Positions 15,316 through 38,401 of a stretch of 64,000 nucleotides of DNA are shown one piece after another. Location: contig JAVKIA010000006.1 in NCBI GenBank assembly GCA_031459715.1, positions 46,210 to 110,209 of the forward strand, given 5' to 3'. Position 1 is the first letter of the stretch. Each line of letters starts with the position of its first letter. The DNA is from Armatimonadota bacterium (GTDB lineage: Bacteria > Sysuimicrobiota > Sysuimicrobiia > Sysuimicrobiales > Humicultoraceae). The position numbers were made by a program, and so were the translations under genes. Below the pieces are notes generated by a model, which worked only from the letters and a program-made list of their open reading frames with translations, did no database searches and was not told where the DNA came from.

Positions 15316-16881
15316 CTAGCGGTCCAGCCAGGTCTTGTGCAGCTCGTCCACCATCTCGGTAACCGAGATGATGAAGTCCTTCACGTCGGCCTTCTTGGCG
15401 TGGATCTGCGGCTCCGTGTACAGGAAGATCTGCGGCGCGTCCTCCATGATGATCTCCTGGATCTTGCGCAGGGCGTAAAGCCGCTTCTCCGGGTCGGTGA
15501 AGAAACGCTGGGCCAGGACCAGCCGGGTAAGGTCGTCCCGGGCGTAGAACATGTTGTTCAGGCCACCGGGCGCCCAGGACTCCTCCGTGTAGTCCTTCAC
15601 CGCCAGGTCGGCGTCCAGGGTGGGCAGCCCCCAGCCGATGAAGAACATCTGGACGATGCTCTCCTGGACCCCCTTGCGCAGCACCGCCTGGTAGGCGCCC
15701 CACTCCATGCGGATGATCTCCACGCGCACGCCCACCGCCGCCAGGTAGGACTGCACCGCCTCCACCACTTCCGTATCCAGGAGGTAGCGGCCCGGTGCAT
15801 AGTGCAACGTGGCCCGGAAGCCGTTAGGGTAGCCGGCCTCCGCCAGGAGCTGCCGGGCCCTGGCCGGGTTGTACTCGTAGGTCTTGATGGGGAAGTAACC
15901 GTACCCGGTGTGGGGCACCGGTGAGTCGGTGATCTTGGCCAGACCCAGGAAGAGCTTGTCCACGATGGCCTTCTTGTCCACCGCGTAGTTAAGGGCCTGG
16001 CGCACCCGCTTGTCCTTGAAGGGGCCCCACTGCACGTTCATGCCCACGAAGATCTTCCGCTGCGGCGGCGGGGTGAGCACGGTGAACCGGGGATTGGCCC
16101 GCAGGCGGGCGGCGTCGCGCGGAGGGACATGGTAGATGGCGTCTACCTCGCCGGCCTCCAGGGCCATGACCCGGGCGGCCGTCTCCGGGATGGGCCGCAT
16201 GACCAGGCCCTCCAGGTACGGGGTCCCGCCCCAGTACTCCTTGTTGGCCGCCAGCCGGACCTCCCGGCCCTTCAGGTGGTGCACGAACTTGAAGGGCCCG
16301 GTTCCCATGGGGGCGGTGAAGTAGTTGGCCCCCAGTTTCTTCACCTGGGTGGGGCTGTTGATGGCGATGGGGGCGTAGGCCAGTTGGGCCGGCAGCGGGG
16401 CGAAGGGGCCGGCCGTGACGATCTGCACCGTGGTCTCATCCACGGGAACGACGCGGTCGATCATGGTGAAGGCCGGCCGCGCCGGGGCCCGGGTGGCCGG
16501 GTCCAGGATACGCTCCACGTTGAACTTCACCGCCTCGGCGTTGAAGGGGGTGCCGTCGTGGAAGCGCACGCCGCGGCGCAGCTTGAACGTCCAGGTCCGG
16601 CCGTCCGGGGAGACGGACCAGGACTCGGCCAGCGCCGGCAGCACCTTCCCGCCCTCCGGACTGATCCTGGTCAGCGTCTCGCTCACCTGGAGGATGATCC
16701 CCAGGTTGGGGATCCCCGTGGCCAGGGCGGAGTCGAAGATGGGAGGGTCTGTCCCTAACGACAGGACGAGCCAGCCCCCGGGTTTGGGTTTGGCCGCCGC
16801 GCCCCACGCGCCCGGCGTGCCTGCCGAAAGCACGAGCAGGGCGACCAGGGCTGCCAGTACCGCCACGTGCGGGTTCTTCAT
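15316..16881 (-). CDS. peptide ABC transporter substrate-binding protein (family 5)
   Basis: This 521-residue extracytoplasmic protein delivers peptides or related ligands to the adjacent permeases. An N-terminal signal peptide (about residues 1-27) is followed by the family 5 order of segments: FKLRRGVRFHDGTPFNAEAV, then VRQALNYAVDKKAIVDKL, then ARQLLAEAGYPNGFRATLHY, and lastly EIIMEDAPQIFLYTE. The start is ATG 16881, five bases after AGGAGGTG; an in-frame GTG at 16902 is possible. Standard domain order here makes it a useful comparison for the permuted protein at 25682-27298. Confidence 0.92.
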   Translation of the reverse strand: MKNPHVAVLAALVALLVLSAGTPGAWGAAAKPKPGGWLVLSLGTDPPIFDSALATGIPNLGIILQVSETLTRISPEGGKVLPALAESWSVSPDGRTWTFKLRRGVRFHDGTPFNAEAVKFNVERILDPATRAPARPAFTMIDRVVPVDETTVQIVTAGPFAPLPAQLAYAPIAINSPTQVKKLGANYFTAPMGTGPFKFVHHLKGREVRLAANKEYWGGTPYLEGLVMRPIPETAARVMALEAGEVDAIYHVPPRDAARLRANPRFTVLTPPPQRKIFVGMNVQWGPFKDKRVRQALNYAVDKKAIVDKLFLGLAKITDSPVPHTGYGYFPIKTYEYNPARARQLLAEAGYPNGFRATLHYAPGRYLLDTEVVEAVQSYLAAVGVRVEIIRMEWGAYQAVLRKGVQESIVQMFFIGWGLPTLDADLAVKDYTEESWAPGGLNNMFYARDDLTRLVLAQRFFTDPEKRLYALRKIQEIIMEDAPQIFLYTEPQIHAKKADVKDFIISVTEMVDELHKTWLDR

Positions 16882-16922
16882 GTTGTCACCTCCTGGTGTC
16901 ACCTGGTGTTGTCACCTCCTGG
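16881..16922 (-). repeat. duplicated ribosome-binding segment upstream of binding-protein gene
   Basis: On the minus strand CCAGGAGGTGACAACA occurs twice (16922-16907 and 16896-16881), offset by 26 bases; only the second copy leads into an ATG. A small tandem duplication has therefore copied the Shine-Dalgarno region. The upstream copy could act as a standby site or be neutral. Confidence 0.7.
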
Positions 16923-19022: not shown

Positions 19023-20402
19023 TCAGCCCGGGGCAGGGGTGCGCAGCAGCGCGGTGAGGCTGCGTACAGAGTCCAACTCGGGTAAAGCGTCGATCAGGGC
19101 GCCCAGAGCCATAGTCCGATCGCGGCCCAGGGCGGGCTCGCTCAGCAAGTGAAATTTCTCTCGAAGCTCCTCCTCCGTTAGCGGGCGTCCTGGATCGCCT
19201 CGAGGGCGGTCCACCCGCGCTTCCAGGCTACGGCCGTCCGTGACCGTTATGGTGACAGCCGCTCCGAGCTGCTGTGGGTAGGCGGCCTCGAAGTCCGGGT
19301 CGACCGTGACCCGCACGCGATCTGCCAGCGCCAGGGTGCGGGAATCGGTTAGCCGCTCGGGAGTGAAGGCATCGGGCCCGAGGCGGCCATCCAGCAGCAT
19401 GACGGCAACCGTGTACGGCACGCTGAACTGAGCATCGGTAGGGCTGCGGGGGCGGGAGATGTTGTGGTACTCATCCTGCAACAGAGAAAATCCTCTTACC
19501 TCCACGCCGCGAACCGCTTCCCCCCGCACGCCGATGGCGAGGAGGTTGCGAATTCCATCGAGAACCGGATGCAGGAAACGGCATGCTGGGTAGGGCTTGA
19601 ACTGCACCTCCTCGAGCAGGTAGGTCTCGCCCAGACGGTCCGTGAGATGAGCGATACGTGGCGTGGCCGCGGCGCCCATCTCCCAGAACCCCATGGTGCC
19701 GTCGAAGATTTGGGCCGGGCCGGTGAAGCCGCGCTGCGCCAGGCGCGCCGCCAGAATGGCGCTGTGCACCGTCCACCCGTACGCGGACTTGACCATCGAG
19801 CGCCCCTGCTCCGCCAGCGCGCGGTCTTTGCGCCCAAGCGGCACCGGCGCCGTGGCTCCCGCCAGGCCCAGCGCGGCGTTCACCTTCTGCGGGGGGAGCG
19901 CGAGGAGCTTCGCCGCCGCCGCGGCCGCTCCGTAGGTCTGCAGCGTCCCCAAATCCCACATGGCCGTGTACCGGGGGATCAGCGGCCGGGCACAGGCCAC
20001 GACCCGCGCGGAGACCTCATAGCCTGCCACCAGTGCGGCCAGCAGAGCGGACCCGTCGGCCCCAACCGCCTCCCCCAGCGCCAGCACCGTGGGGACCACT
20101 GTAGCTCCGGGGTGGCCAAAGAGGGTATCGTCAAAGTCCAGGGCGTTGGCCATGGTGGCGTGAGCAAAGGCGGTCAGCGGCGCGGGCAGCCGGCTTTGGC
20201 TGAGGACGAGGGTGGCCTCCGGCGCTCCGCCCATCTCCCGCGCCAGGGCGGCAGCGTAGCGCCCCGGCTCGGTGCCCGCACCGCCGAGGATGCAGCCCAG
20301 GGTGTCCTGTAGGCAGCGCCGCGCCACCGCTATCACCGTCGGCGAGAGTGTGGCGACGGAGAGCTCGTGGACGAATGCGGCGATTCGATCCGTGGCGGTC
20401 AT
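19023..20402 (-). CDS. MmgE/PrpD family protein (second copy)
   Basis: This 459-residue protein has the MmgE/PrpD fold with ARRCLQDTLGCILGGAGTEP, HATMANALDFDDTLFGHPG and EVQFKPYPACRFLHPVLDGI, the same three landmarks as the copy at 7623-9026 but clearly diverged. The start is the ATG at 20402, overlapping the stop of the ATPase gene (ATGA); upstream in-frame sequence lies inside that gene. It probably acts as a dehydratase, isomerase or decarboxylase on a carboxylic acid produced from the imported substrate. The two copies in two importer operons suggest a shared type of substrate. Confidence 0.86.
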   Translation of the reverse strand: MTATDRIAAFVHELSVATLSPTVIAVARRCLQDTLGCILGGAGTEPGRYAAALAREMGGAPEATLVLSQSRLPAPLTAFAHATMANALDFDDTLFGHPGATVVPTVLALGEAVGADGSALLAALVAGYEVSARVVACARPLIPRYTAMWDLGTLQTYGAAAAAAKLLALPPQKVNAALGLAGATAPVPLGRKDRALAEQGRSMVKSAYGWTVHSAILAARLAQRGFTGPAQIFDGTMGFWEMGAAATPRIAHLTDRLGETYLLEEVQFKPYPACRFLHPVLDGIRNLLAIGVRGEAVRGVEVRGFSLLQDEYHNISRPRSPTDAQFSVPYTVAVMLLDGRLGPDAFTPERLTDSRTLALADRVRVTVDPDFEAAYPQQLGAAVTITVTDGRSLEARVDRPRGDPGRPLTEEELREKFHLLSEPALGRDRTMALGALIDALPELDSVRSLTALLRTPAPG

Positions 20403-21439
20403 ACGGACACCTGGGTACGGCCCTGTGGCGTGGCGAAATGGCATGCGGCGAGGACTCCCGGGACCACCGGACGCAGCGGGGGCCTCTCGGCCCGACAACG
20501 CTCCACGGCGTGCGGGCAGCGCGGCGCGAAGACACATCCACGTTCATGCGTCCCCGTCTCCGGCTCGCCGCGCACGGGCACCTCGCCCAATGGCTGGTCG
20601 GGGTCGGCCAGAGGAGCAGCTGCCAAGAGCGCCTGGGTGTAGGGGTGGCGCGGACGGCGCACCAGTTCTTCCGCGGCGCCCTGCTCCATGATATGGCCCA
20701 GGTAGAGGACGATGATCTCGTCGCAGAGGTAACGCACCGTGGCCAGGTCATGGGAGATGAACAGAATGGCCAGACCGCGGCGCTTTCGCAGGTCCGCCAG
20801 GAGGTTGAGGATGCCGGAGCGGACAGAGACGTCCAGCATGGAGACGGGCTCGTCCGCCACCAGGAAGTCGGGATCCACAACCACGGCGCGAGCGATGGCT
20901 ACCCGCTGCCGCTGCCCGCCAGAGAGCTCGTGGGGGTAGCGGAGAAGAAAGTCTTCCGCGGGGCGCAGGCCGCAATCCGTGAGCGCCTGCACCACGGCGT
21001 CGCGGCGCGCCCGTCGGGGCACTCCCTGGATGACCAGTGGCTCCTCCACCGCGTCCATGACGGTGAAGCGGGGGTTGAGCGATTCGTAGGGATTCTGAAA
21101 GATGATTTGCGCCCGGCGCCGGAACTCCCTGGGGCTGCGGCGCAACCAGGCGGAGAGGGGGCGCCCGTCGAAGCACACCTCTCCCCCGGTGGGCTCCTGC
21201 AGGCCGACCACCAGTTCCCCCAGCGTGGACTTTCCCGAGCCGCTTTCTCCCACCACGCCGACGATCCGGCCGGGCGGGACGGAGAAGCTTACCCCGGACA
21301 GTGCAGTGATACGCCTCCAGGACGCCCCGACGAGCCCGCCACGCAGGAAGAAGTCCTTGTGCAGGTCGCGCACCTCCAGCAGGGACGCCGCACTTGCGCT
21401 GGTGGTAGCAGGGTGCTGCGGCCGCTGCATGCTCCTCAT
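20399..21439 (-). CDS. oligopeptide ABC transporter ATPase, DppF type
   Basis: This 346-residue ATPase energises peptide import. It has Walker A GESGSGKST, the ABC signature ELSGGQRQRVAIARA, Walker B FLVADEPVSMLD and a switch His in FISHDLATVRYL. The C-terminal oligopeptide module, RGCVFAPRCPHAVERC, is the usual cysteine-rich extension of this class. It overlaps both neighbours by ATGA. With the preceding DppD-type ATPase it is the only ATPase pair in a window that holds three sets of DppB/DppC permeases. Confidence 0.93.
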   Translation of the reverse strand: MRSMQRPQHPATTSASAASLLEVRDLHKDFFLRGGLVGASWRRITALSGVSFSVPPGRIVGVVGESGSGKSTLGELVVGLQEPTGGEVCFDGRPLSAWLRRSPREFRRRAQIIFQNPYESLNPRFTVMDAVEEPLVIQGVPRRARRDAVVQALTDCGLRPAEDFLLRYPHELSGGQRQRVAIARAVVVDPDFLVADEPVSMLDVSVRSGILNLLADLRKRRGLAILFISHDLATVRYLCDEIIVLYLGHIMEQGAAEELVRRPRHPYTQALLAAAPLADPDQPLGEVPVRGEPETGTHERGCVFAPRCPHAVERCRAERPPLRPVVPGVLAACHFATPQGRTQVSV

Positions 21440-22473
21440 GCAGGCACCTGCTCCCAGAGCCGCTCGTCCTCGGCCAGGAGACGCAATGCTGGCGCCTCGG
21501 CGGCGCGGTGGCAGGCGGTGAGCCGGCCGTCTTCTCCGGGGAGCAGGGGCGGCGTGATGGTGGCGCAGACCCCCACAGCGAAGGGACAGCGCGGCTGGAA
21601 CGGGCAGCCACGAACCTCACCCAGCAGCGACGGGGGCGCACCGGGGATGGAGATAAGCCGCCGGGCGCGGCGCAGGTCGGGGAAGGCGTTGCGCAGCCCC
21701 ATGGTGTAGGGGTGGGCCGGGCGGTGCAGGACCTGCCGCGTGGGTCCCACCTCGACCAGGCGGCCCGCGTACATGACGGCGATACGGTCGCAGGTCTGCG
21801 CTACCAGGGAGATGTCGTGGGAGATATAGAGGACGGCCACGCCCAGTGCCCGCCGCAGACGGATCAGCTCCTTCACGATAGCGTGCTGCGTGATGACGTC
21901 CAGCGCCGTTGTCGGCTCGTCGGCGATGAGCACCTGCGGCTGCAGGGCCAGGGCCATGGCGATGACCACACGCTGCCGCTGTCCGCCGGAGAGCTGGTGG
22001 GGGTAGCTGGTGAAACGGTCCGCGTCCAGCCCCACGGCCTGCAGCAGGGACTCCGCCTGGCGGCGCGCGGCGACGGAGGAGATGGGGCGGTGCGCGCGGA
22101 TGGCTTCGGCGATCTGGTCACCCACGCGGTGCACCGGGTTTAGGGCATTCATTGAGGACTGGGGCACCAGCGCTATGCGCGCCCAGCGGAGGCGACGCAT
22201 CTGTTCCTCCCGTAGCCGCAGCAGGTCCGTCCCATCCAGCAGCACCCGGCCGCTGACCTCGGTCTGCGCCGGAAGGATGCGCAGCAGCGCCCGGGCCAGG
22301 GTGCTCTTCCCGCAGCCGGATTCCCCGACCACGCCCAGGGCTTCGCCGCGGTGCAGCGCCAGGGAGACGCCGTCGACAGCGGTCAGCGGGCCGGCCGGGG
22401 TGAGGTAGCGCACCATCAGGTCGCGCACCTCCAGCAGGGAGCCTGTGGCGCTCGGGTGGGTGGGCGCGCTCAT
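21436..22473 (-). CDS. oligopeptide ABC transporter ATPase, DppD type
   Basis: This 345-residue partner of the DppF-type ATPase has Walker A GESGCGKST, signature QLSGGQRQRVVIAMA, Walker B VLIADEPTTALD, and the C-terminal module RGCPFQPRCPFAVGVC that marks oligopeptide transporters. The start is the ATG at 22473, overlapping the permease stop; the frame continues upstream but only inside the permease gene. The two ATPases form the cytoplasmic heterodimer of the importer. Confidence 0.93.
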   Translation of the reverse strand: MSAPTHPSATGSLLEVRDLMVRYLTPAGPLTAVDGVSLALHRGEALGVVGESGCGKSTLARALLRILPAQTEVSGRVLLDGTDLLRLREEQMRRLRWARIALVPQSSMNALNPVHRVGDQIAEAIRAHRPISSVAARRQAESLLQAVGLDADRFTSYPHQLSGGQRQRVVIAMALALQPQVLIADEPTTALDVITQHAIVKELIRLRRALGVAVLYISHDISLVAQTCDRIAVMYAGRLVEVGPTRQVLHRPAHPYTMGLRNAFPDLRRARRLISIPGAPPSLLGEVRGCPFQPRCPFAVGVCATITPPLLPGEDGRLTACHRAAEAPALRLLAEDERLWEQVPA

Positions 22474-23405
22474 GGCTCGCGCAGCCGGGCCACCGCGGGA
22501 GCTGTAGCCACCGCCGTGGCCTCCGGCGCCAGTGGGGCGCGTACCGCCGCGACGGTTCGCAGGCGGGGGTTGGCCAGCTGTTCGTAGGCGCGGCTGAGGA
22601 AGAAGATGGCCAGCACCAGCAGCATGATGCACACCCCGGGCGGCACCACCCACCACCAGGCCGCACGAATGGATCCGGTGAGGAAGGCCGTGTGCAGGAC
22701 TTGCCCCCAGGAGACCAGGCGGGGATCCCCGAAGCCAAGGAAACTTATGCTGGCCTCCGCGGTGATGGCCCACCCCGCCGTAATGGCCACATAGAGGAAG
22801 GCCAACGGCAGGATGTTGGGGGTGATGTGGTGTCCAAGGATGCGCAGGTGGCCGGCCCCGGCGGCCCGCGCCGCCTTTACGTAGGGCCGCTCAACCAGGG
22901 AGAGGACCTGGGCACGGATGATGCGGGCGGGGGAGCGCCACATGATCAGCGTGATGGCCAGGATGATGTTCCAGATGCTGGGACGGAGAATTCCCACCAG
23001 CGCGATGATGAAGGGTTCGAAGGGCAGGGCATAGGCCACATCCACGGCGCGCATCAAGACGTCGTCTACCCAGCCGCGATAGTACCCGGCCACCACCCCG
23101 ACGGCCGTGCCCACGGTGGTGACCAGGATCGCCGCCAGCAGCCCGACCAGCAGGGCTACACGCGTACCCAGGACCACCTGGCTGAAGATGTCCCGTCCCA
23201 GGTTGGTGGTGCCGAACCAGTATTCCCGGGAGGGCGGCTGGAGGAAGGCGACGCGGCCCTGCGGTGTGGTCAGCACCTCTTGCGGATCGTGCGGGGCGAT
23301 CCAGGGAGCGAAGAGGGCCACCAGGGCAAAGAAGCCCAGAACGAAGAGGCCGAGGGAGGCCAGACGGTCGCGGCGGATGACGGTAAGGTGGGCCCGCCAG
23401 TCCAT
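22470..23405 (-). CDS. dipeptide/oligopeptide ABC transporter permease, DppC type
   Basis: This 311-residue membrane protein begins MDWRAHLTVIRRDRLASLG, followed by a membrane segment, the DppC motif REYWFGTTNLGRDIFSQVVL and the EAA loop YVKAARAAGAGHLRILGHHI. A C-terminal tail of about 30 Ala/Pro-rich residues extends beyond the last helix and is longer than in the other DppC copies here. Its ATG lies two bases after the stop of the DppB gene. It completes the DppBCDF importer of the iclR operon. Confidence 0.92.
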   Translation of the reverse strand: MDWRAHLTVIRRDRLASLGLFVLGFFALVALFAPWIAPHDPQEVLTTPQGRVAFLQPPSREYWFGTTNLGRDIFSQVVLGTRVALLVGLLAAILVTTVGTAVGVVAGYYRGWVDDVLMRAVDVAYALPFEPFIIALVGILRPSIWNIILAITLIMWRSPARIIRAQVLSLVERPYVKAARAAGAGHLRILGHHITPNILPLAFLYVAITAGWAITAEASISFLGFGDPRLVSWGQVLHTAFLTGSIRAAWWWVVPPGVCIMLLVLAIFFLSRAYEQLANPRLRTVAAVRAPLAPEATAVATAPAVARLREP

Positions 23406-23407
23406 GG

Positions 23408-24382
23408 TCAGCGCACGGAGACCCTCGGGTCGAGGTAGCCGTACACCAGGTCGGTGAAGAAATTCATCACCACCACCATGGCGCCAAGCAGGAGGAACGC
23501 CGCCTGGGCCAGGGGGAAGTCGCGCCGCTGCGTGGCGGCCACGATCTCCAGGCCCAGGCCCGGCCAGGAGAAGACGTACTCGATCACGGCTATCCCGCCG
23601 GCGGCCAGGGCGATGTAGATGCTGGCAGCGGTGACCACCGGGAGGAGGGCGTTGCGTGCCGCGTGGTGGAACATGATGCGCCCCTCGGCGAGTCCCTTGG
23701 CCCGGGCCAGCTCGATGTAGTCTTCTCCCAGGACCTCCAGCATCGTGTTCCGCAGCAGCAGCAGCGGAAACCCCAGGAAGTAGAGGCCGGAGACTATCGC
23801 CGGCTGGACCAGGTGGGTGAGGAAGTCCCAGCTGAGGTACTTGTCCAGGACGCCGCTGGCCACATAGCCAGGGGTACGCAGGCCGGCGTGCGGCAGCCAG
23901 TCCAGGGTGAAGGAGAAGAGCATGATGGAGAGCATCCCCGTCCAAAACAGCGGTGCGGAGCGAAAAACCAGGGCCAGCGTCACCCCGCCCAGCTCCAGCC
24001 GGGAGCCGCGCCGCCAGGCCAGGAGCATGCCTCCCAGGATGCCCAGGGTGTAGGCAAAGAGGAAGGCCGCCGCAGCCAGGATCACGGTGTTCAGCAGCTT
24101 CTCCCGGACGATGCCCATCGCCGGCTGGTGGTAGAAGAATGACCGGCCGAACTCCCCACGCAGCGCATTGCTCAGGAAGTGCAGGTACTGTACCCACAAC
24201 GGTCGATCCAGGCCGAAGCGCTGCCGCAGCAGCTCGCGCACGTCCGGCGGAAAGGAGGGATCCAGCAGCGCGTACGTCGGGTCGCCAGGCAGGAGGCGGA
24301 AGAGGACGAAGGTGATTGTGGCTATGAGCCACAGCGTCAGCAGGCTCTGGGCGAGGCGGCGGATCAGGTACCTGACGCGCAT
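23408..24382 (-). CDS. dipeptide/oligopeptide ABC transporter permease, DppB type
   Basis: This 324-residue membrane protein begins MRVRYLIRRLAQSLLTLWLI and has the DppB signature LFRLLPGDPTYALL, the segment GEFGRSFFYHQP, the EAA loop YIELARAKGLAEGRIMFHHA and the C-terminal LVYGYLDPRVSVR. A longer periplasmic loop (VASGVLDKYLSWDFLTHL) is seen, as in some oligopeptide-type DppB proteins. It follows the M24 peptidase gene by 12 bases. Confidence 0.92.
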   Translation of the reverse strand: MRVRYLIRRLAQSLLTLWLIATITFVLFRLLPGDPTYALLDPSFPPDVRELLRQRFGLDRPLWVQYLHFLSNALRGEFGRSFFYHQPAMGIVREKLLNTVILAAAAFLFAYTLGILGGMLLAWRRGSRLELGGVTLALVFRSAPLFWTGMLSIMLFSFTLDWLPHAGLRTPGYVASGVLDKYLSWDFLTHLVQPAIVSGLYFLGFPLLLLRNTMLEVLGEDYIELARAKGLAEGRIMFHHAARNALLPVVTAASIYIALAAGGIAVIEYVFSWPGLGLEIVAATQRRDFPLAQAAFLLLGAMVVVMNFFTDLVYGYLDPRVSVR

Positions 24383-24394
24383 GGGCCGGGAAGG

Positions 24395-25603
24395 TCAGGC
24401 GATCCAGAGGTCCCTGGGGAAGGTGCTGAGTACCTCATGGCCGTCGGCGGTGACAACGACGACGTCCTCCAGGGCGAAGTTGCCGATGCGCCCGTCGGGC
24501 CGGTCGCTGAAGATGGGCTCCACGGTGAGCACCATGCCCTCCTCGACCACGGTCTCCCCGTCCATGGCGATAGAGGGAGGCTCGTGCACATCCAGGCCGA
24601 CGCCGTGTCCCACGCGCTCGATGCGGGCGTGCTCGGCGAAGCCCATCTCCCGGATCACCTCCCAGCAGGCCTCGAAGATAGCCCTGGTAGGGATGCCCGG
24701 TCGTATGGCTGCCACCCCTGCTTGCTGCGCCGCCAGCTCGCAGGCGAAGAAGGCGCGCTGCTCGGGCGTGGGATCGCCGATAGCGGCCATGCGCATGAAG
24801 TCGGACCAGTAGTCCTTGTAGGTGGCCCCCAGGTCAACGACCACCAGGTCGCCGCGCTGCAGGGGCTTGTCGAACGGCTCCACGTTGATCATGCGGTACT
24901 TCAAGCGGCCGGAGCGCACCATGACGAAGCCGGGGCGGTATCCGGTGGCGGCCAGCTCACGGAAGAGGATGCCGGCCAGTTCGCGCTCGCTCATCCCCTC
25001 GCGCAGGGCAGCAAAGCCCACCTGGAAAGCCTGGGAGGTGGCCGCACAGGCGCGGCGGATGGCCTCAATCTCCGCGGGAGACTTGACGACGCGAACCTGC
25101 CACAGGGCGGGAGCTCCGTCGACGACCTTCATCTGCGGCAGGGCGGCGCGCAGGGCCTCGTAGTCTGCCTGCGGCATGGCCAGGCGGGTGCCGTAGCCCA
25201 GCTCCCAGCCCACCCGTGCCGCGGTCAGGTGCAGGTCCTCCAGTGCCCGGCGGATGGCCAGGATGGGGTCGGGGGGTGCTCCCGGCACGCGCACCCCACC
25301 CCAGAGTCGGACGTCCTCAATCCAGGAGCTCTCGTAGGCCACGAACTCCAGGGATTCGGGTACCACCAGCGCCGGAGGGCGGCTGTCCGCCGGTACAATC
25401 AGCCCCAGAGGACGGTGCTTCGAATCCCAGCCGATGGTCTGCAGCCCGCTGAGGTAGACCACGTTCTCCTTGGCCGTGAGCAGCAGGGCGTCCAGACCCT
25501 GCTGGGCCATCACCCGGCGGAGCCGCTCCAGCCGCTGCTGGTATTCCGCGCGGGGAAAAGGAGCGTAGGTGCCCCGCACCTGCGCGGCTTTGGTCTCACT
25601 CAT
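24395..25603 (-). CDS. M24 family metallopeptidase (Xaa-Pro aminopeptidase/creatinase type)
   Basis: This 402-residue pita-bread-fold protein has an N-terminal creatinase-like domain and a C-terminal catalytic domain. The dinuclear metal ligands are visible: the two Asp in VVDLGATYKDYWSDFMRM, His in ERVGHGVGLDVHEPP, Glu in VLTVEPIFSDRP and Glu in NFALEDVVVV. The start is ATG 25603, seven bases after AGGAGG; an ATG at 25609 is too near. Family members are prolidases, Xaa-Pro aminopeptidases or creatinases. In an operon with an opine dehydrogenase a creatinase-like C-N hydrolase is as likely as a prolidase. A second M24 gene is on the divergent arm. Confidence 0.86.
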   Translation of the reverse strand: MSETKAAQVRGTYAPFPRAEYQQRLERLRRVMAQQGLDALLLTAKENVVYLSGLQTIGWDSKHRPLGLIVPADSRPPALVVPESLEFVAYESSWIEDVRLWGGVRVPGAPPDPILAIRRALEDLHLTAARVGWELGYGTRLAMPQADYEALRAALPQMKVVDGAPALWQVRVVKSPAEIEAIRRACAATSQAFQVGFAALREGMSERELAGILFRELAATGYRPGFVMVRSGRLKYRMINVEPFDKPLQRGDLVVVDLGATYKDYWSDFMRMAAIGDPTPEQRAFFACELAAQQAGVAAIRPGIPTRAIFEACWEVIREMGFAEHARIERVGHGVGLDVHEPPSIAMDGETVVEEGMVLTVEPIFSDRPDGRIGNFALEDVVVVTADGHEVLSTFPRDLWIA

Positions 25604-25681
25604 CACCATGCCTCCTTCCGACCTCACCTGCCGCACCGCGGGCGAGATGTCCCGGGATACGCGTCCTTGGCCCTGTTGCGG

Positions 25682-27298
25682 TCAGCGGGCGGGCATGAGC
25701 AGTCGGCCCTGCGCGTCCCAGGTGTACCCGGCTTCCCGCAGTAGAGACCGCGCCCGCTCCATGTTGAACTCCGCGTACCGCACGTTCGGATTGTGCCAGA
25801 ATTCGTTAACCGGGGCGATCATCCCCCGGCCGGGCTCGGCCAGGCCGCGCTGGATGACGTTGACGATGACGTCATAGTTCACCGTGTGGGCCAGCGCGCG
25901 GCGGAAGCGCACATCGCTGAAGGGCGGCTTGCGCAGGTTGAAGCCCAGGTAGAAGACGCCGAAATCGGGCCGGCGCACCAGGGCCAGGTGCGGCACCGTC
26001 TTGGCCTCCTCAACCTGCTGTGGCAGAAGCCGCCGCTCGTGCATGTCAATCTCACCCTTCTTCAGGGCCAGGAAGAGCGCATCCTGGTTGGCGAACTTCA
26101 CCAGGATAAAGCCGCGGGCTCGGGGCGCGTTAAAGTGCTTCTCGTAGCGCACCAGCCGCGTCTCTTCGCCGCGGCGCCACAGCTCGAACTTGAAAGGCCC
26201 GCTGCCGATGGGCGTGGGGTTGGCCCAGTCCTGGGGGTGCTTCAGCCGCTCCCGTTCCACCACATCTCCCCAGACGTGCCGCGGGATTAGGTAGATCTGG
26301 GTGAAGGTGGCCTGGAAGAGCGGGGGAAACGGCTCGGCCAGGCGGAAGCGCAAGAGGGTGGGGCTGAGTATCTCCACCTCTTTGACTGGATCGAGGAAGG
26401 GCTTGAACAGGGGGACCGGCCAGCGCTTCTGGTAGTCATAGGAGAACTTCACGTCCTCAGCCGTCACCGGGCGCCCGTCGTGGAAGGTCATCCCGCTGCG
26501 CAGCTCTACCTCCACGGTGGTGGGATCCACCTGGCGCCAGCTTCGCGCCGCCCATGGCACCGGTTTCCCAGTAGGGTCCACGCGGGCCAGGGTATCGTAG
26601 ATCAGGCGCATCACCTCGATGTTGGCGCCGCCCGCCTCCACGAAGGGGTTGGTGGACTCGATGTCGCTCACCCGGCCCACCTTGAGGATCCCGTCACCAG
26701 TGAGCGGCGTGGCCTGCACCAGGGTCCAGAAGTTGAAGATCCCGTAACCGATGGTAGGAACGTGGCCGCGGAACTTCTCCTTGTTATAGGCGTGCACCTC
26801 GACGGGATGGTAAAGGGTGATGGTAGGGACGTCGCGGGCCAGGATCTCCTGTAGCTTGAAGACAATCTCCCGCCGCTTGCGCACGTCGATCTCCGTCCGC
26901 TGCGCCTCCACCAGCCGGTCGTACTCCGGGTTGCGGTAGCCCATGAAGTTCGTGCCGCCGGGGACGTCCTGCGAGGAATGGAAGGGGCGGAAGAGCAGGA
27001 CGTCGGGGTCGAGCCGCTCCGGCCGGGCGACGAAGCCAGAGATGAAGGCGTGGAAGTCCCAGGGCGGGGTGCTGATGCGCCGACTGAGGGCGGTGAAGTC
27101 CATGGGCACGACCTCCACCTCCAGCCCCAGGCGGCGCCAGTTGTTGCTGAGCAGGATGCCGCTCTCGTAACGCACAGGGTCGTAACTTGCGGAGGGAAAG
27201 ACGAAGGTCAGGTCGGGGACCCGCGTTCCGCTCTGGGCGCGCAGGCTCGCCGGCCAAAGCAGCGGGATCAGCAAGGACAGGATCACCAGCTTGCGCAT
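25682..27298 (-). CDS. family 5 ABC substrate-binding protein with circularly permuted domain order
   Basis: The 538-residue protein has a signal peptide (about 1-22) and all segments of a family 5 peptide-binding protein, but rotated. Residues 28-197 look like the normal C-terminal third: LGLEVEVVPMDFTALSRRI, then MGYRNPEYDRLVEAQRTEID, then LQEILARDVPTITLYHPVEV. From about residue 200 the normal N-terminal part begins: GRVSDIESTNPFVEAGG, then VELRSGMTFHDGRPVTAEDV, then VRFRRALAHTVNYDVIVNVI. It ends ERARSLLREAGYTWDAQG, normally the middle of such proteins. The start has GAGGAGGAACGTC upstream. It probably serves the DppBCDF genes downstream. Compare the normal order at 15316-16881 and 36797-38401. 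Confidence 0.82.
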   Translation of the reverse strand: MRKLVILSLLIPLLWPASLRAQSGTRVPDLTFVFPSASYDPVRYESGILLSNNWRRLGLEVEVVPMDFTALSRRISTPPWDFHAFISGFVARPERLDPDVLLFRPFHSSQDVPGGTNFMGYRNPEYDRLVEAQRTEIDVRKRREIVFKLQEILARDVPTITLYHPVEVHAYNKEKFRGHVPTIGYGIFNFWTLVQATPLTGDGILKVGRVSDIESTNPFVEAGGANIEVMRLIYDTLARVDPTGKPVPWAARSWRQVDPTTVEVELRSGMTFHDGRPVTAEDVKFSYDYQKRWPVPLFKPFLDPVKEVEILSPTLLRFRLAEPFPPLFQATFTQIYLIPRHVWGDVVERERLKHPQDWANPTPIGSGPFKFELWRRGEETRLVRYEKHFNAPRARGFILVKFANQDALFLALKKGEIDMHERRLLPQQVEEAKTVPHLALVRRPDFGVFYLGFNLRKPPFSDVRFRRALAHTVNYDVIVNVIQRGLAEPGRGMIAPVNEFWHNPNVRYAEFNMERARSLLREAGYTWDAQGRLLMPAR

Positions 27299-27345
27299 GA
27301 CGTTCCTCCTCTCTCACTTGCGGAATACCTCTGGCCGCGTGGGGC

Positions 27346-28371
27346 TCATGCCCCTACGCGGGGGATGACCTCCTCGGCGATGCGCCGCAGGTTCGTCCGG
27401 TGATCGAAGTCGGGAAAGGCGTGGCTGCCGAAGCGTCCGCCTGGCATGAGGACGGCGAGCTGTCCCACCCCGGCCCGGGCCAGGGTCTGTACCCGCTCGG
27501 CCACCTCCCCCGGGGGCCCCACGATCGTCAGCGCGTCCGCCAGCGGCGGATCTACGAGAGGTGCTGCCCCCAGGGGTCCCCCGGCGCCATAGGCCTTCTT
27601 GAAGGCGGCGATTCGCTCGGCGGAGAGCCCGATGGCCTGCAGCACCTCCGGCGGCGCACCCCCCACGATGTGGGCCACGGTGGGGCGCAGCCGCTCCATG
27701 ACCTCTGCCTTCCGGTCAGTGACGATGGTGGTAACCCAGCTCACAACTTCCAGGGCCTGCAGCGTGCGGCCGGCGCGCTGCGCCCCCGCGCGTACGTGGT
27801 CCAGAGCGAAGCGGAGCCCTGGCTCGCTGACCAGAGCCCCGATGATCACTCCGTCGGCGACCTCTCCGGCGGCCCGCAAGATCTGTGGCCCGCGTGCCGC
27901 CAGGTAGACAGGTGCCGGTGGCAGGGACGTTATCTCCAGGGCGACGCCCTGCATGGTCAGCGTGGGGCTGCGATAGTCCACCCGTTCCCCCGCGAGCAGA
28001 CGCCGGATGGTGACCGTTGCTTCCCGGCAGCGTGCTGCGGCGCGGTCGGTAGGCAGGCCCAGGAGGTCCAGCAGCTCCTTCCGGTTGCCCGCCCCCAGAC
28101 CCAGGATGAAACGCCCACCCGCCAGCTCGGCCAGCGTGGCGGCGGCACGTGCGGTCATGGCAGGGTGACGGGTGGTAGGATTGGTCACCCCCAGCCCCAG
28201 GGTGATGCGCGTGGTGCCCTGGGCGCAGGCGGCCAGCGTGATATAGGGGTCGCGGCAAAAGGTCTGGTCGGGCATCCACCCTACGGAGAAGCCCAGGTCC
28301 TCGGCCAGTCGGAAAAGGGTCACCGTCTCCGCAGGCGAACCGGTGGGCAGAGTAGCGAACCCGAAACGCAT
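27346..28371 (-). CDS. luciferase-like (LLM class) flavin- or F420-dependent oxidoreductase
   Basis: This 341-residue TIM-barrel protein resembles bacterial luciferase-like monooxygenases and F420-dependent reductases. Marks are MRFGFATLPTGSPAETVTLF, AEDLGFSVGWMPDQTFCRDP, ITLGLGVTNPTTRHPAMTAR and RFILGLGAGNRKELLDLLGL. The cofactor cannot be decided from sequence. The start ATG shares one base with the stop of the enolase-superfamily gene (TGATG). In this operon it could oxidise or reduce an imine- or ketone-containing intermediate. Confidence 0.82.
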   Translation of the reverse strand: MRFGFATLPTGSPAETVTLFRLAEDLGFSVGWMPDQTFCRDPYITLAACAQGTTRITLGLGVTNPTTRHPAMTARAAATLAELAGGRFILGLGAGNRKELLDLLGLPTDRAAARCREATVTIRRLLAGERVDYRSPTLTMQGVALEITSLPPAPVYLAARGPQILRAAGEVADGVIIGALVSEPGLRFALDHVRAGAQRAGRTLQALEVVSWVTTIVTDRKAEVMERLRPTVAHIVGGAPPEVLQAIGLSAERIAAFKKAYGAGGPLGAAPLVDPPLADALTIVGPPGEVAERVQTLARAGVGQLAVLMPGGRFGSHAFPDFDHRTNLRRIAEEVIPRVGA

Positions 28372-29507
28372 CAGGCTTCCCCCGCGCGCAGCGTGTACTC
28401 CGCGATCGTGTAGCGGCGTACCCTGTCCCAGTCCAGGCTTACCCCCAATCCAGGGCCGGTGGGCACCTGGAGCGCGCCGTCGGTGAAGACCAGCGGGGTC
28501 TGCGCCACGTCCTCCTGCAGGAGGAACTGCCCGCCCAGCTCGCACCCATATGTGACCGACGGCGTGCTGGCGGCAAAGTGCAGTCCCGCCGCCGCGCCCA
28601 CCGGGCCCTCCAGTGCGCCTCCCACATAGGCGGCGATGCCAGCGGCGGCAGCCACGGTGGCCACCTTCTTGCTGTTGAGGATGCCGCCCGGGCTGCAGAC
28701 ATAAATGGAGAGGATCTGGGCGGCGCGGCGTCGGGCGATCTCCAGGGCGTCCTGCACCGTGGTCGCGCTCTCGTCGGCCATGATGGGCAGCTCGGTAGCC
28801 CGGCTGACCTCGGCCATCCCATCCAGGTCCCACCAGGCCACCGGCTGCTCGAAGAACTCCACGTCGTAGCGCTCCAGCCGCCGCGCCACGCGAATGGCCG
28901 TCTTCACGCTGTAGGCCTGGTTGGCGTCCGCACGCAGGCGCACCCCGGGTCCTACGGCCTCCCGGATGCGGCCCACCATCTCCACGTCCTCGTCGGGCTG
29001 GGGGCGGCCCAGCTTGACCTTGATGATCCGCCATCCCCTGGCCACCATCTCCTGCGCCTCCCGCACTCCCGCCTCGAAGTCGGTGATGGGGATGGACCAG
29101 GAGAGGGGGACGGCAGCGCGCACCATGCCGCCCAGCAGTACGTGCACAGGTACGCCCAGCGCTTTGCCCGCCAGGTCGAAGACCGCCAGGTTGACCGCGC
29201 TCTTAGCCCGCAGGTTCCACGGCACCGCCGCGTCCATGGCCTGCTGGATTGCTTCCACGTCCAGCGGCGAGCGGCCGAAGACCGCCGGGAGCAACCGCTG
29301 GCGCAGCATCTCCAGGACCGTGGCCGGGGACTCGCCTTTGAGCGAGACGCCCACCATGTGCGGCGCCTCGCCCAGGCCTTCTAGCCCGTCGTTAGTGGAC
29401 AGGCGCAGAAGGACGTTCTCCTGGTGGAGGGTGGTGCCGATGGCCATCTTGTGGGCGCGGATCACCGGAATTCTGGTCAGCGTAACCACTGCATGGACGA
29501 TCTTCAT
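28371..29507 (-). CDS. mandelate racemase/muconate lactonising enzyme family protein
   Basis: This 378-residue enolase-superfamily protein has a capping domain and a barrel with the KxK motif WRIIKVKLG, and metal ligands in RADANQAYS (Asp), VEFFEQPVAW (Glu) and PIMADESAT (Asp). The second general-base position, a Lys about six residues before a Gly-Gly in muconate cycloisomerases, falls in LSIYVCSPGG and appears to be Tyr, so the chemistry may be one-base or different. The start is ATG 29507, shortly after GGAGGAG. Its place beside an opine dehydrogenase suggests a racemase, epimerase or dehydratase acting on an amino-acid derivative. Confidence 0.82.
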   Translation of the reverse strand: MKIVHAVVTLTRIPVIRAHKMAIGTTLHQENVLLRLSTNDGLEGLGEAPHMVGVSLKGESPATVLEMLRQRLLPAVFGRSPLDVEAIQQAMDAAVPWNLRAKSAVNLAVFDLAGKALGVPVHVLLGGMVRAAVPLSWSIPITDFEAGVREAQEMVARGWRIIKVKLGRPQPDEDVEMVGRIREAVGPGVRLRADANQAYSVKTAIRVARRLERYDVEFFEQPVAWWDLDGMAEVSRATELPIMADESATTVQDALEIARRRAAQILSIYVCSPGGILNSKKVATVAAAAGIAAYVGGALEGPVGAAAGLHFAASTPSVTYGCELGGQFLLQEDVAQTPLVFTDGALQVPTGPGLGVSLDWDRVRRYTIAEYTLRAGEA

Positions 29508-29527
29508 CGGTCTCCTCCGTGGCGCGC

Positions 29528-30583
29528 TCACCGCCAGCCCGTCTGCAGGAAGACGGGCAGAGTCTTGCGGTCCAGCCCGGCCAGGCCCAGCCGCTCAACC
29601 GTCCGTCCCACCGCCCAGTAGTCCACGCCCCGGGCGACGGAGGCCAGCCAGTTCAAGGCGTCGTTGATCGGAGTGGGCACGCCCAGGAGGCGGCCCAGGG
29701 ACGACATGAAGACGCAACCACAGGGGATGTCCTCGTCGATGTAGCGCCAGTGGATGCGGTCGCGCAGGCCCATAGGCTCGCCCGGGCTGCGGTACACTGC
29801 CGGGCTGCTGCCGAACTCATAGTAGAGGTCATCCAGCGACGCCGGTGGCAGCCCCGCCGCTTCCGCCAGGGCCATCCGCTCGGCGTCGTGGGCGTCCATG
29901 GCCCGCAGCACCCCCGGGGTCATCCCTTCGTTCATCAGGGAGAGCCGGCCTTCCGCACGCTCGATGGCCGCGTAGTTCAGGATCATCGGCGCCGGGTGGA
30001 TGATGAAGTTGGGGTTGTTCAGGCCCGTGTCCAGGACGTTGAGGCCGCGGCGCGTCTCGATGATGCCGTCCAGACGGGCCAGCAGCTCGTCGGTGCGCTC
30101 AGCCGGAAAGGCGGCGGTGCGCACCCTGGAGGGGAGGCGAATCTTCACCCGGGCGGGGCCAATGATGCGCGCGGACTGCGGCAGGGTCACGGTTTCCCCC
30201 AGCAAGGGCAGCGGGTCCATGCCCCCCTCGCGCCAGATCTTGGCCACTTCCAGGGAGCCCGCTGAGCCTGAGGCCAGGACGACGGCCTGCCCTGACCGGA
30301 TATGGGGTGCGAAGAGTCGGGCGATGTCACCGTGGGCGTTGGCAGTGGTGAAGACGAAGAGCAGGTCGGCCTCGCTGGCCTCCGTTGCATCGGGCGTGAT
30401 TCGAGCCAGCGGGACGAACCCCTCTCCCCGGTCGCCGGTGATCTCCACCCCACCTCGCGCGGACACTGGCTCCAGGCGGGAGGGCGTCCGACTGAACAGG
30501 GTTACGATCAGCCCCTGGCGGCTCAGCACCGCCGCCGCGGCCAGCCCTCCGGCCCCCGCCCCGATCACCGTGACCCGCACCAC
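29528..30583 (-). CDS. octopine/nopaline (opine) dehydrogenase family protein
   Basis: This protein of about 351 residues has an N-terminal NAD(P) Rossmann domain (VTVIGAGAGGLAAAAVLSRQ) and the C-terminal helical domain of opine dehydrogenases with NPNFIIHPAPMILNYAAIE, where the conserved His and Asn lie. The family joins or oxidatively splits amino acid-oxo acid conjugates. The start is one of two adjacent GTG codons (30583 or 30580), 12 bases after iclR. In a catabolic operon with a peptide-type importer it probably splits an imported opine-like compound into an amino acid and an oxo acid. Confidence 0.83.
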   Translation of the reverse strand: MVRVTVIGAGAGGLAAAAVLSRQGLIVTLFSRTPSRLEPVSARGGVEITGDRGEGFVPLARITPDATEASEADLLFVFTTANAHGDIARLFAPHIRSGQAVVLASGSAGSLEVAKIWREGGMDPLPLLGETVTLPQSARIIGPARVKIRLPSRVRTAAFPAERTDELLARLDGIIETRRGLNVLDTGLNNPNFIIHPAPMILNYAAIERAEGRLSLMNEGMTPGVLRAMDAHDAERMALAEAAGLPPASLDDLYYEFGSSPAVYRSPGEPMGLRDRIHWRYIDEDIPCGCVFMSSLGRLLGVPTPINDALNWLASVARGVDYWAVGRTVERLGLAGLDRKTLPVFLQTGWR

Positions 30584-30595
30584 CGCCTCCCTTCG

Positions 30596-31450
30596 TCAGA
30601 CCGGCAGGAGCTGCGCGCCGGGCGGGGCGACCAGCCGGTCCGGGGGCGCGCCCAGGCGGCGGGAGAGCTCGTTTGCCGTTTCGATCACGCGCCGCACGGC
30701 CTCGGCGATGGCGTCGTCGCCGTGCAGGTGGCGGGCGAACCCCACGCTCACCGCTGCGACAGTCGTGCCATGGTGGTCACGCACCGGCGCGGCCACGCCT
30801 ACCATCCCTGCGATGCGCTCCTCTACGTTCAACGCGTATCCAGCCAGCCGCACAGCCTCCAGGTGCTGGCGCAGCCGTTGCGGGTCCACGATTGTGTGTG
30901 GCGTGAGGGCGGGCAGCGGATGGCTGATGAGTCGGTCGAGGACGTCGGGGGGTAGGTCGGCCAGCAGGACCTTGCCCGAGGCAGTGGCGTGGGCGGGTCG
31001 GCGGTCCCCCACCCGAGCCGTCATCTTCAGGCCCTCCGCCCCCTCGATGGCGGCGATGTAAAGCACCTCCATCCCGTCGAGCACGGCCATGGCGGCGGTA
31101 TGCCCGCTGCGCCGCATCAGGTCGCGTAGCAGCGGGGTGCCTTCGCGGATGAGGGGCTCTTCGCTCTGGAAGACCCCGGCCAGCTCCATGATTCCGGGGC
31201 CCAGGCGGTATCGTCGGGACGACGGGTCCCGCTGCAGCAGGCGCCCATCTTGAAGGGTCAGCAGGATCTTATGCACGACGGCTTTGTGCCATCCAAGCTC
31301 CCGGCTCAGCTCGCTGACTGACCGCTCGGGATGGTCCTTTGTGAACGCCTGCAGCACGCGAACTGCCTTTTGAATAGAGTTGATCGTGTATGGGCGCCTG
31401 AGTGGCACCCGCACTCGTTGTGACTCTCCAGCCGGGCCCGGGCTGGCCAT
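30596..31450 (-). CDS. IclR family transcriptional regulator
   Basis: This 284-residue regulator has an N-terminal winged helix (INSIQKAVRVLQAFTKDHPE, then VSELSRELGWHKAVVHKILL) and the C-terminal effector domain (ARVGDRRPAHATASGKVLLA, then IAGMVGVAAPVRDHHGTTVA). It is first in the 13.7-kb minus-strand operon and divergent from the aminotransferase-NicX-M24-importer operon. A palindrome inside its own promoter makes autoregulation and joint control of both arms likely. The effector is probably the imported substrate or a breakdown product. Confidence 0.9.
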   Translation of the reverse strand: MASPGPAGESQRVRVPLRRPYTINSIQKAVRVLQAFTKDHPERSVSELSRELGWHKAVVHKILLTLQDGRLLQRDPSSRRYRLGPGIMELAGVFQSEEPLIREGTPLLRDLMRRSGHTAAMAVLDGMEVLYIAAIEGAEGLKMTARVGDRRPAHATASGKVLLADLPPDVLDRLISHPLPALTPHTIVDPQRLRQHLEAVRLAGYALNVEERIAGMVGVAAPVRDHHGTTVAAVSVGFARHLHGDDAIAEAVRRVIETANELSRRLGAPPDRLVAPPGAQLLPV

Positions 31451-36796: not shown

Positions 36797-38401
36797 ATGC
36801 ACGTACGAGGTCTGGTCATCATGGTTACCCTGCTGGCGGCGCTGCTGCTGCCGGCGGCCGGTGGCGGGGCCGTGGCGCCTCCGCCGCGGCCCGGAGGGCG
36901 GGTGGTGGTGGCCCTCACGGCGGGATGGGACCTGCTCGATCCCGCGGTAGCCGCCTTCACCTTCGCCCGGGAGATCATGGGGAATATCTTCGACCCCCTG
37001 CTCATCCGGGATCCGGATACCGGGGAGATCCGCCCCGGCGTGGCCTCCAGCTACACCGTCTCCCCGGACGGGCGGGTAATCCTCCTCAAGCTGCGCCAGG
37101 GGGTGAGGTTCCACGACGGCACGCCGCTGAACGCGGAGGCGGTGGCCTTCTCCATCAACCGGATCAAGGATCCGGCCCTGCGCTCCCCCTTTGCCGCCAC
37201 CATCCTGGGGCCGGTGGAGCGGGTGGAGACCCCAGACCCCTTCACGGTGCAGATCACCCTCTCCACACCCTTTGCCCCATTCCTCGACGCGCTGACGGAG
37301 ATCGGCCTGGCCCCCGTCTCCCCCACCGCCGTGCGTCGCTTCGGCGCCAACTTCGGGCAGAACCCTGTGGGCACCGGTCCATTCATTGTTAAGGAGATCG
37401 TTCCCAACCAGCGGGTCACCCTGGTGCGCAACCCCGACTACCGGTGGGCGCCTCGCTTCTTCCGCCACCCCGGCCCCGCCTATCTGGACGAGCTGGTGTA
37501 TACCGTCGTCCCCGAGGACGCCACCCGGTTGGCTCAGCTGGTGCGCGGTGAGGTCCAGGTGCTCTACAACGCGCCGCCACGGGAGGTAGCGCGGCTGGGG
37601 CGTAACCCCAACTTCAGGGCCTTTTTCAAGAACCAGTCAGGCCTCCCCCGAGTAATTGTGCTGAACACCAGCCGCTGGCCGTTCGACGACCTGCGCGTGC
37701 GCCAGGCGGTGGCCCACGCTATCAACAAGGATGAGCTGCTGCGGGCCGTCTACGAGAACGTAGGCGCCGTGGCTAACGCCCCGCTCTCCCCGGCGACCTG
37801 GGGGTACAACAAGGCCGTGGAGCAACTGGCCCAACCCTACAGCCCTGACCGGGCGCGTCAGCTCCTGGCGGAGGCGGGATGGCGTCCGGGACCGGACGGC
37901 ATTGTGGTGAAAGATGGGCGGCCGTTCCGCATCCGCCTGGGGACCATCACCGTGGCGCAGCAACTGCTGGACGCACAGGTGAAGCAGGCGCAGCTGCGTC
38001 AGGTGGGCATCGACGCCCAGATTGTGGCCATCGAACAGGCGCCCTATCTGGCCGGCATCCGCCGCGGGGAGTGGGAGATGGCTGGCATGCTTTTCGTCAG
38101 CGCTGACCCGGATGTGCTCTTCATTGTGGGGCACAGCAGCCAGATCGAGCGAGGGTGGAACACCGCCATCTACCGTAACGCCGAACTGGACCGCCTGCTG
38201 GAAGAGGGACGGGTGACCATGGACCCGCGGCGCCGCTTTGAAATCTACACACGCGCCCAGGAGCACTTGATGCGCAATGTGCCCTACATCCCCTTCTACG
38301 TCATCAGACGTGCCTTCCTGACCACCGGTAACCTGAACGGGTACGTCCTGGACGCCCGCGCGTTCCAGCTGTTTCACAACGCCTGGCTCGCCCGGCGTTA
38401 G
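36797..38401 (+). CDS. peptide ABC transporter substrate-binding protein (family 5)
   Basis: The 534-residue extracytoplasmic protein has a signal peptide (about residues 1-26) and the normal family 5 order: LKLRQGVRFHDGTPLNAEAV, then VRQAVAHAINKDELLRAVYE, then RARQLLAEAGWRPGPDGIVV, then AQEHLMRNVPYIPFYVIRRA. Translation starts at ATG 36797 behind AGAAGGAGGGAGG, a strong ribosome-binding site consistent with the high level needed for a binding protein. It ends the plus-strand arm and would feed the two permeases upstream. Confidence 0.92.
   Translation: MHVRGLVIMVTLLAALLLPAAGGGAVAPPPRPGGRVVVALTAGWDLLDPAVAAFTFAREIMGNIFDPLLIRDPDTGEIRPGVASSYTVSPDGRVILLKLRQGVRFHDGTPLNAEAVAFSINRIKDPALRSPFAATILGPVERVETPDPFTVQITLSTPFAPFLDALTEIGLAPVSPTAVRRFGANFGQNPVGTGPFIVKEIVPNQRVTLVRNPDYRWAPRFFRHPGPAYLDELVYTVVPEDATRLAQLVRGEVQVLYNAPPREVARLGRNPNFRAFFKNQSGLPRVIVLNTSRWPFDDLRVRQAVAHAINKDELLRAVYENVGAVANAPLSPATWGYNKAVEQLAQPYSPDRARQLLAEAGWRPGPDGIVVKDGRPFRIRLGTITVAQQLLDAQVKQAQLRQVGIDAQIVAIEQAPYLAGIRRGEWEMAGMLFVSADPDVLFIVGHSSQIERGWNTAIYRNAELDRLLEEGRVTMDPRRRFEIYTRAQEHLMRNVPYIPFYVIRRAFLTTGNLNGYVLDARAFQLFHNAWLARR

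Follow-up and report, generated by a model that had tools for sequence, protein, structure and literature searches.

Introduction

Bacteria and archaea commonly use family 5 substrate-binding proteins for capture. Circular permutation is well known, the examples in the available text of one account being saposin/swaposin and the transhydrogenases (PMC3320104). A naturally permuted binding protein of an ATP-binding cassette (ABC) importer, TpMglB-2 (Tp0684) of Treponema pallidum, was described in 2016 under the name "Cluster Bc"; the accessible portions of that paper report relatives in other treponemes and in Gram-positive bacteria, demonstrate glucose binding, and suggest anchoring as a factor favoring the permutation (PMC4990184). 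For family 5, we found no report of natural permutation among the papers listed from the open-access literature, a body outside which subscription papers mostly lie, and the rotated class treated here was found to be undescribed in it. We present here a member of that class, encoded on the minus strand at 25682..27298 of a 64,000-nucleotide stretch (the window) of an Armatimonadota bacterium genome (GCA_031459715.1, contig JAVKIA010000006.1). Taken jointly, it is very likely that this is a permuted family 5 protein with the standard fold and a DppBCDF-type partner, and that the permutation has at least two origins. The order and completeness of its segments, their conservation, and its neighbors are direct observations.

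Results

The gene starts with ATG and encodes 538 amino acids plus a stop codon. Residues 1 to 21 (27236..27298) are a likely Sec signal peptide; by eye, the N terminus is hydrophobic with an AxA-like site, and cleavage is placed after LRA21. The protein itself shows no lipobox. By sequence match and fold, residues 30 to 191 (26726..27211) correspond to the normal C-terminal third (AppA about 358 to 517), and residues 203 to 538 (25685..26692) correspond to the normal N-terminal and middle parts (AppA about 22 to 358). Between them, residues 192 to 202 (26693..26725), delimited by the ends of the matched stretches, form the joint from the old C terminus to the old N terminus. The new C terminus lies slightly beyond the LLREAGY helix.

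The two pieces were matched to PDB sequences using phmmer, with the best 60 of 98 matched chains compared. Residues 203 to 528 matched AppA (1xoc) 22 to 346 (i-Evalue, 1.3e-21), and residues 32 to 191 matched AppA 362 to 517 (i-Evalue, 6.9e-11). Against 5u4o, residues 202 to 526 aligned with 43 to 360 and residues 50 to 161 with 382 to 488. A profile of 64 relatives extended the two pieces to AppA 24 to 345 and 358 to 513, with a value of 2.7e-18 for the C-terminal third; jointly, the pieces span AppA 17 to 517, minus a few residues at the cut. Pfam SBP_bac_5 covers only residues 245 to 531 and profile positions 1 to 284 of 368, and its score of 212.5 bits, against a curated cutoff of 32.4, places the protein in the family. 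All fold segments of family 5 are present, in other than the standard order. Segment order is a usual feature of the family and no formal Pfam criterion, so the protein is a rotated variant.

Order was classified with separate profile hidden Markov models for each piece. This test called the target permuted and called standard the two other family 5 proteins of the window, at 15316..16902 (minus strand) and 36797..38401 (plus strand), both of which also seeded the test. The sequence-only reading had put the C-terminal third first and the normal middle last, which the swapped AppA matches bear out; its join near residue 199 falls within the joint, its two standard-order controls stand, and its view of a whole-gene permutation as opposed to a truncation agrees with the matching of both AppA 22 to 346 and 362 to 517. 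The checks that it proposed, aligning the halves separately to known structures and searching for relatives of the same order, returned AppA for both halves in rotated order and the permuted order in 120 of 120 listed homologues. The E-values, together with an order kept in every one of these homologues, rule out a chance match.

The AlphaFold2 model of the target has a predicted local distance difference test (pLDDT) score of 93.9 and a predicted template modeling (pTM) score of 0.90; residues 2 to 10 are helical in the model at low confidence. Fold matches to family 5 were obtained for residues 198 to 538 and also for the first approximately 145 residues of a model of residues 22 to 200 alone. 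Based on these models, the target likely takes the standard two-lobed family 5 shape. No cluster B protein was seen, by titles, among the 50 matches listed in each of two fold comparisons. No permuted member with a solved structure was present among the best 60 of 106 chains matching the family profile, as judged from the best stretch.

At E ≤ 0.001, 1158 of 7993 scored candidates were homologues of the target, and the 120 listed ones, which make up our sample of the target's family (family A), reach down to 37% identity. A first set of weaker piece profiles had called 118 of these 120 permuted and left two without a call for one piece. They include proteins of Bacillus horti, Caldalkalibacillus uzonensis, and Cytobacillus oceanisediminis, and an 88% identical protein of equal length was found on four contigs. 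Among the best 80 loci (one genome per species), 30 have a permuted and 50 a standard family 5 protein; one locus holds both orders, and one gave no classified protein. The bacterial permuted loci are from Pseudomonadota, Bacillota, Chloroflexota, Spirochaetota, Atribacterota, Actinomycetota, and one bacterium without a phylum, and the archaeal ones are from Thermoproteota and haloarchaea (filed under Methanobacteriota); titles of metagenome bins may be wrong, and several loci come from isolates. On plasmids, 39 records match the target at E ≤ 1e-40, all below 60% identity; in every record, a single location accounts for at least 80% of the query. Examples are those of Ketogulonicigenium vulgare, Neorhizobium galegae, and Halalkalicoccus jeotgali. 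A complete haloarchaeal chromosome (locus L062) carries the permuted order as well.

When 291 genomes were compared at E ≤ 1e-60, with up to four candidates scored per genome, full-length colinear matches emerged in 14 of the 43 genomes of the target's own order, namely the window's genome, one of the same genus, and 12 further genomes of the order, and partial matches in 2 more. None of the other 248 genomes matched at this threshold; the family is therefore patchy there. The SBP_bac_5 match ends at profile position 283 to 285 of 368 in the permuted proteins scanned (the target and those of loci L002, L062, and L052), and this stop is a simple signature for counting the class in annotated genomes.

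The same genome encodes a second permuted protein of 514 amino acids (G000:C3:95218-96759; locus L002, 1417 to 2961, plus strand). It is the best nonself match of the target within its genome, at 31% identity in a colinear alignment, and all 120 of its listed homologues (family B) are permuted. By hand count, the genome has 25 SBP_bac_5 matches, from the two permuted genes (one giving two matches), three fragments, and 19 genes that read as standard, meaning that the match runs past profile position 336; one genome thus carries both rotated families together with 19 such genes. When a standard-order relative (locus L032, 47 to 1492) was used as the query, 119 of 120 listed proteins were standard and one was too short to classify. 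Five family B proteins are 48 to 52% identical, after reordering, to their nearest standard proteins (49% for the gene of this genome) and 25 to 31% identical to the closest family A proteins compared. Piece by piece, the family B protein of this genome has identities of 0.49 and 0.48 to the standard protein P0258 and of 0.30 and 0.33 to the target, and family B proteins have per-piece identities of 40 to 56% to the standard-order proteins compared. As the relationship holds for each piece separately, family B represents a single rotated gene rather than two fused paralogues.

In both families, the cut falls between a strand and the preceding helix, which closes with an AGY/AGF-like motif, so that the new ends fall in a helix-strand loop at about 345 to 362 of AppA. 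In P0310, a standard relative of family B, this loop reads AGYPDG-FSIVLD. In family B, the chain stops a median of 3 residues beyond the AGY motif (119/120 matched), and the new mature start lies shortly before the strand. For family A, the median is 14 residues (117/120 matched), and the joint of the target has about 11 residues. The tail lengths differ between the families, and therefore the same loop was opened at a different residue. At the family B joint, 71 of 120 proteins fit the search pattern; in 68 of them, NLHD is separated from the first strand by 7 residues. Of 119 standard relatives, 43 fit the matching pattern, 6 of them spuriously or far from the end, and 29 of the 43 have 4 residues from NLHD to the C terminus. 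By eye, adding these 4 residues to the short mature segment that precedes the first strand in P0310 gives approximately the family B joint length. From these sequences, the old ends in family B appear joined almost without a scar. In the haloarchaeal protein L087_+7077_9089, the joint carries a low-complexity TTAGDDE/TTAGDNE-like repeat at the position that holds the termini in standard proteins.

A first tree of 138 reordered rows, chosen below 62% identity, changed the permuted label twice. In a careful tree of 78 rows (22 family A and 5 haloarchaeal rows selected manually; 9 family B and 42 standard rows chosen by identity limits), family B (support, 100/100) was placed among standard-order proteins, family A had support of 98/88, and the haloarchaeal rows (100/100) joined family A at 93/96. 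Forcing all 36 permuted rows into one clade cost 198.5 log units (approximately unbiased [AU] test, p-AU 7.9e-133), which rejects a single clade of all permuted rows. Omission of three long rows gave the same result, and a tree from the N-terminal-plus-middle part alone also gave two changes. As the one-clade tree is rejected and family B is closer to standard proteins, the permutation likely arose at least twice. Compared with the target, family B is of the same family 5, is opened in the same loop, and adjoins DppB and DppC genes; it differs in its separate origin, supported by the tree and the AU test, in its shorter C-terminal tail, and in its almost scarless joint.

The target heads a minus-strand run in which it is followed by an M24 family peptidase (Creatinase_N and Peptidase_M24; 24395..25636), a DppB-type permease (23408..24382), a DppC-type permease whose start lies inside a longer open reading frame (ORF) (22470..23399), a DppD-type ATPase ORF whose true start is probably further in (21436..22773), a DppF-type ATPase (20399..21439), and then an MmgE/PrpD protein. 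The partner genes on the target's strand thus comprise two BPD_transp_1 proteins and two ABC_tran plus oligo_HPY proteins. Of 20 family A loci, 18 have DppB- and DppC-type genes downstream in the same orientation; in the remaining 2, the contig ends within about 120 bases of the permuted gene. For family B, both permease genes are directly downstream in all three loci examined. As Dpp-type permease and ATPase genes adjoin it, the target is likely the binding protein of a DppBCDF-type importer for peptide- or opine-like compounds.

Upstream of the target are genes for a luciferase-like protein, an enolase-superfamily enzyme, an octopine-dehydrogenase-like enzyme, and an IclR regulator. Together with the peptidase gene, these form a minus-strand cluster (24395-31450) that could point to the transported compound. 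Judging from the M24 peptidase and the opine-type enzyme, the cargo might be modified peptides or amino acid conjugates.

Elsewhere in this genome (L138:3602-4453, minus strand; G000:C12, about 51.6 to 52.5 kb), an ORF fuses a family 5 start (<210 residues) in frame to what by eye resembles the end of a DppB-type permease. DppC-like pieces follow, and this is apparently a deletion inside a decaying importer operon.

Discussion

The N-terminal third might be an unrelated domain attached to a truncated binding protein, as the Pfam match, which marks residues 245 to 531 only, would have it. We consider the chance of this negligible; residues 32 to 191 match AppA 362 to 517 in sequence, both singly and by family profile, and also by fold, which refutes such a domain, and the rest of the profile (268 to 363) lies upstream within the second permuted gene. 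An artefact of assembly or gene joining is less credible still. The window comes from a genome of 75 contigs, which would allow for one, but the 88% identical protein has the same length on four contigs, the same order is found at full length in the same-genus genome and in 12 further genomes of the order, and it recurs on plasmids of cultured species and on a complete haloarchaeal chromosome. The relatives in cultured bacteria, archaea, and plasmids refute the artefact.

A single rearranged ancestor, with the standard relatives of family B having reverted or being misplaced in the tree, is improbable. It would fit the cutting of families A and B in the same loop, the standing of the family B protein as the target's best match in its genome (31%, colinear), and the tree of the C-terminal third, which gives three changes with poorly resolved groups. 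These points are set against the AU test and its stability without the three long rows, the existence of relatives of family B that keep the standard order at about 50% identity, per-piece identities of family B to standard proteins (40 to 56%) that exceed those of this genome's family B protein to the target (30% and 33%), and tails that differ by about ten residues. We thus retain at least two origins. That the permutation is adaptive, shifting the membrane tether (an N-terminal lipid or signal) on the fold as suggested for TpMglB-2, is unlikely, though less so than a single origin. The new N terminus looks by eye like a secretion signal in 19 permuted rows, and 49 of 120 listed family A homologues have a rough lipobox pattern. 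Yet this pattern is rarer in family B (22/120) than in standard-order relatives (28/119); in the loci, with start codons unchecked, it occurs in 4 of 38 nonhaloarchaeal permuted, 4 of 13 haloarchaeal, and 16 of 76 standard proteins; and the target has none. For family B, the lipobox counts leave the tether idea unsupported.

Several results weigh against a permuted, importer-linked protein of repeated origin. Modeled alone, the N-terminal piece folds at moderate confidence (pLDDT, 76.1; pTM, 0.57). In the tree of the C-terminal third (128 columns), the three changes come with family A split and the haloarchaeal group, which may represent a third origin, not joined to it. The trees are unrooted, so the count of two changes is silent on the ancestral order; from its wider diversity, the standard order would be ancestral. 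Duplicated intermediates, with a C-terminal third both before and after, numbered 0 among 488 classified proteins (291 permuted, 195 standard, and 2 without a C-terminal third; some proteins are counted twice, for example the window's gene and its locus copy). Dpp permeases were near none of 10 haloarchaeal permuted loci (L052, L053, L057, L059, L062, L070, L087, L091, L097, and L111), one of which is cut at the gene's end; only one has a DppF-like ATPase, 6 kb away. The haloarchaeal proteins may have another function or a distant transporter. Finally, DppA binds its dipeptide through R383 and D436, according to the available text of PMC12136057, and in one profile alignment these align with about A37 (at the alignment edge) and R92 of the target. 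These residues are not matched, and therefore a plain dipeptide is not an obvious ligand and is probably not that of the target.

L052 holds two permuted copies in tandem with a PAP2-family gene between them, a spacing shared by L053 and L057, and the permuted gene of L062 has a glycosyltransferase 2 gene nearby.

The proposed route to such a protein is as follows. The old termini would lie close together in the fold, and the ring would be closed by a joint of about 11 residues (target) or almost none (family B). The chain would open in the loop that links the LLxEAGY helix to the strand after it, and this loop would supply the new ends and receive the signal peptide. The cleft, its flytrap-like closing, and docking on DppB and DppC would be unchanged, with only the start and end of the chain moved to that loop. 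Most likely, the gene was duplicated in tandem, the copies fused, and both ends were then trimmed. One such event would have occurred in the ancestor of family A, in bacteria and archaea, and another in family B, at the same loop.

We are nearly as confident that these proteins are an overlooked rotated family 5 class ("cluster Cc"), old enough to span bacteria and archaea, and that the loop is a permutation hot spot opened at least twice independently, as we are in the joint reading of the target. Rotated proteins that bear a name are labeled plainly as ABC transporter substrate-binding proteins, and to a domain tool they look truncated. With standard relatives at about 50% identity, the two independent rotations at this loop provide a rare natural experiment. 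They open the question of how chain order bears on folding, secretion, tethering, and docking with the fold and partners held constant, and the loop is a possible site for new ends in biosensor design within family 5.

Among known systems, AppA (1xoc), DppA (1dpp), OppA, and NikA (family 5/cluster C; PF00496) are homologous to the target in both pieces, resemble its predicted fold, and share Dpp-type neighbors. Unlike these standard proteins, the target has a rotated chain order with its ends in the helix-strand loop. TpMglB-2 is, like the target, a permuted binding protein of an ABC importer, but the description in the accessible portions of its report sets it apart by its Type I/cluster B sugar-binding fold and another breakpoint (PMC4990184). 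Saposin/swaposin and the transhydrogenases, as treated in the available text of PMC3320104, represent the same kind of evolutionary event in other proteins.
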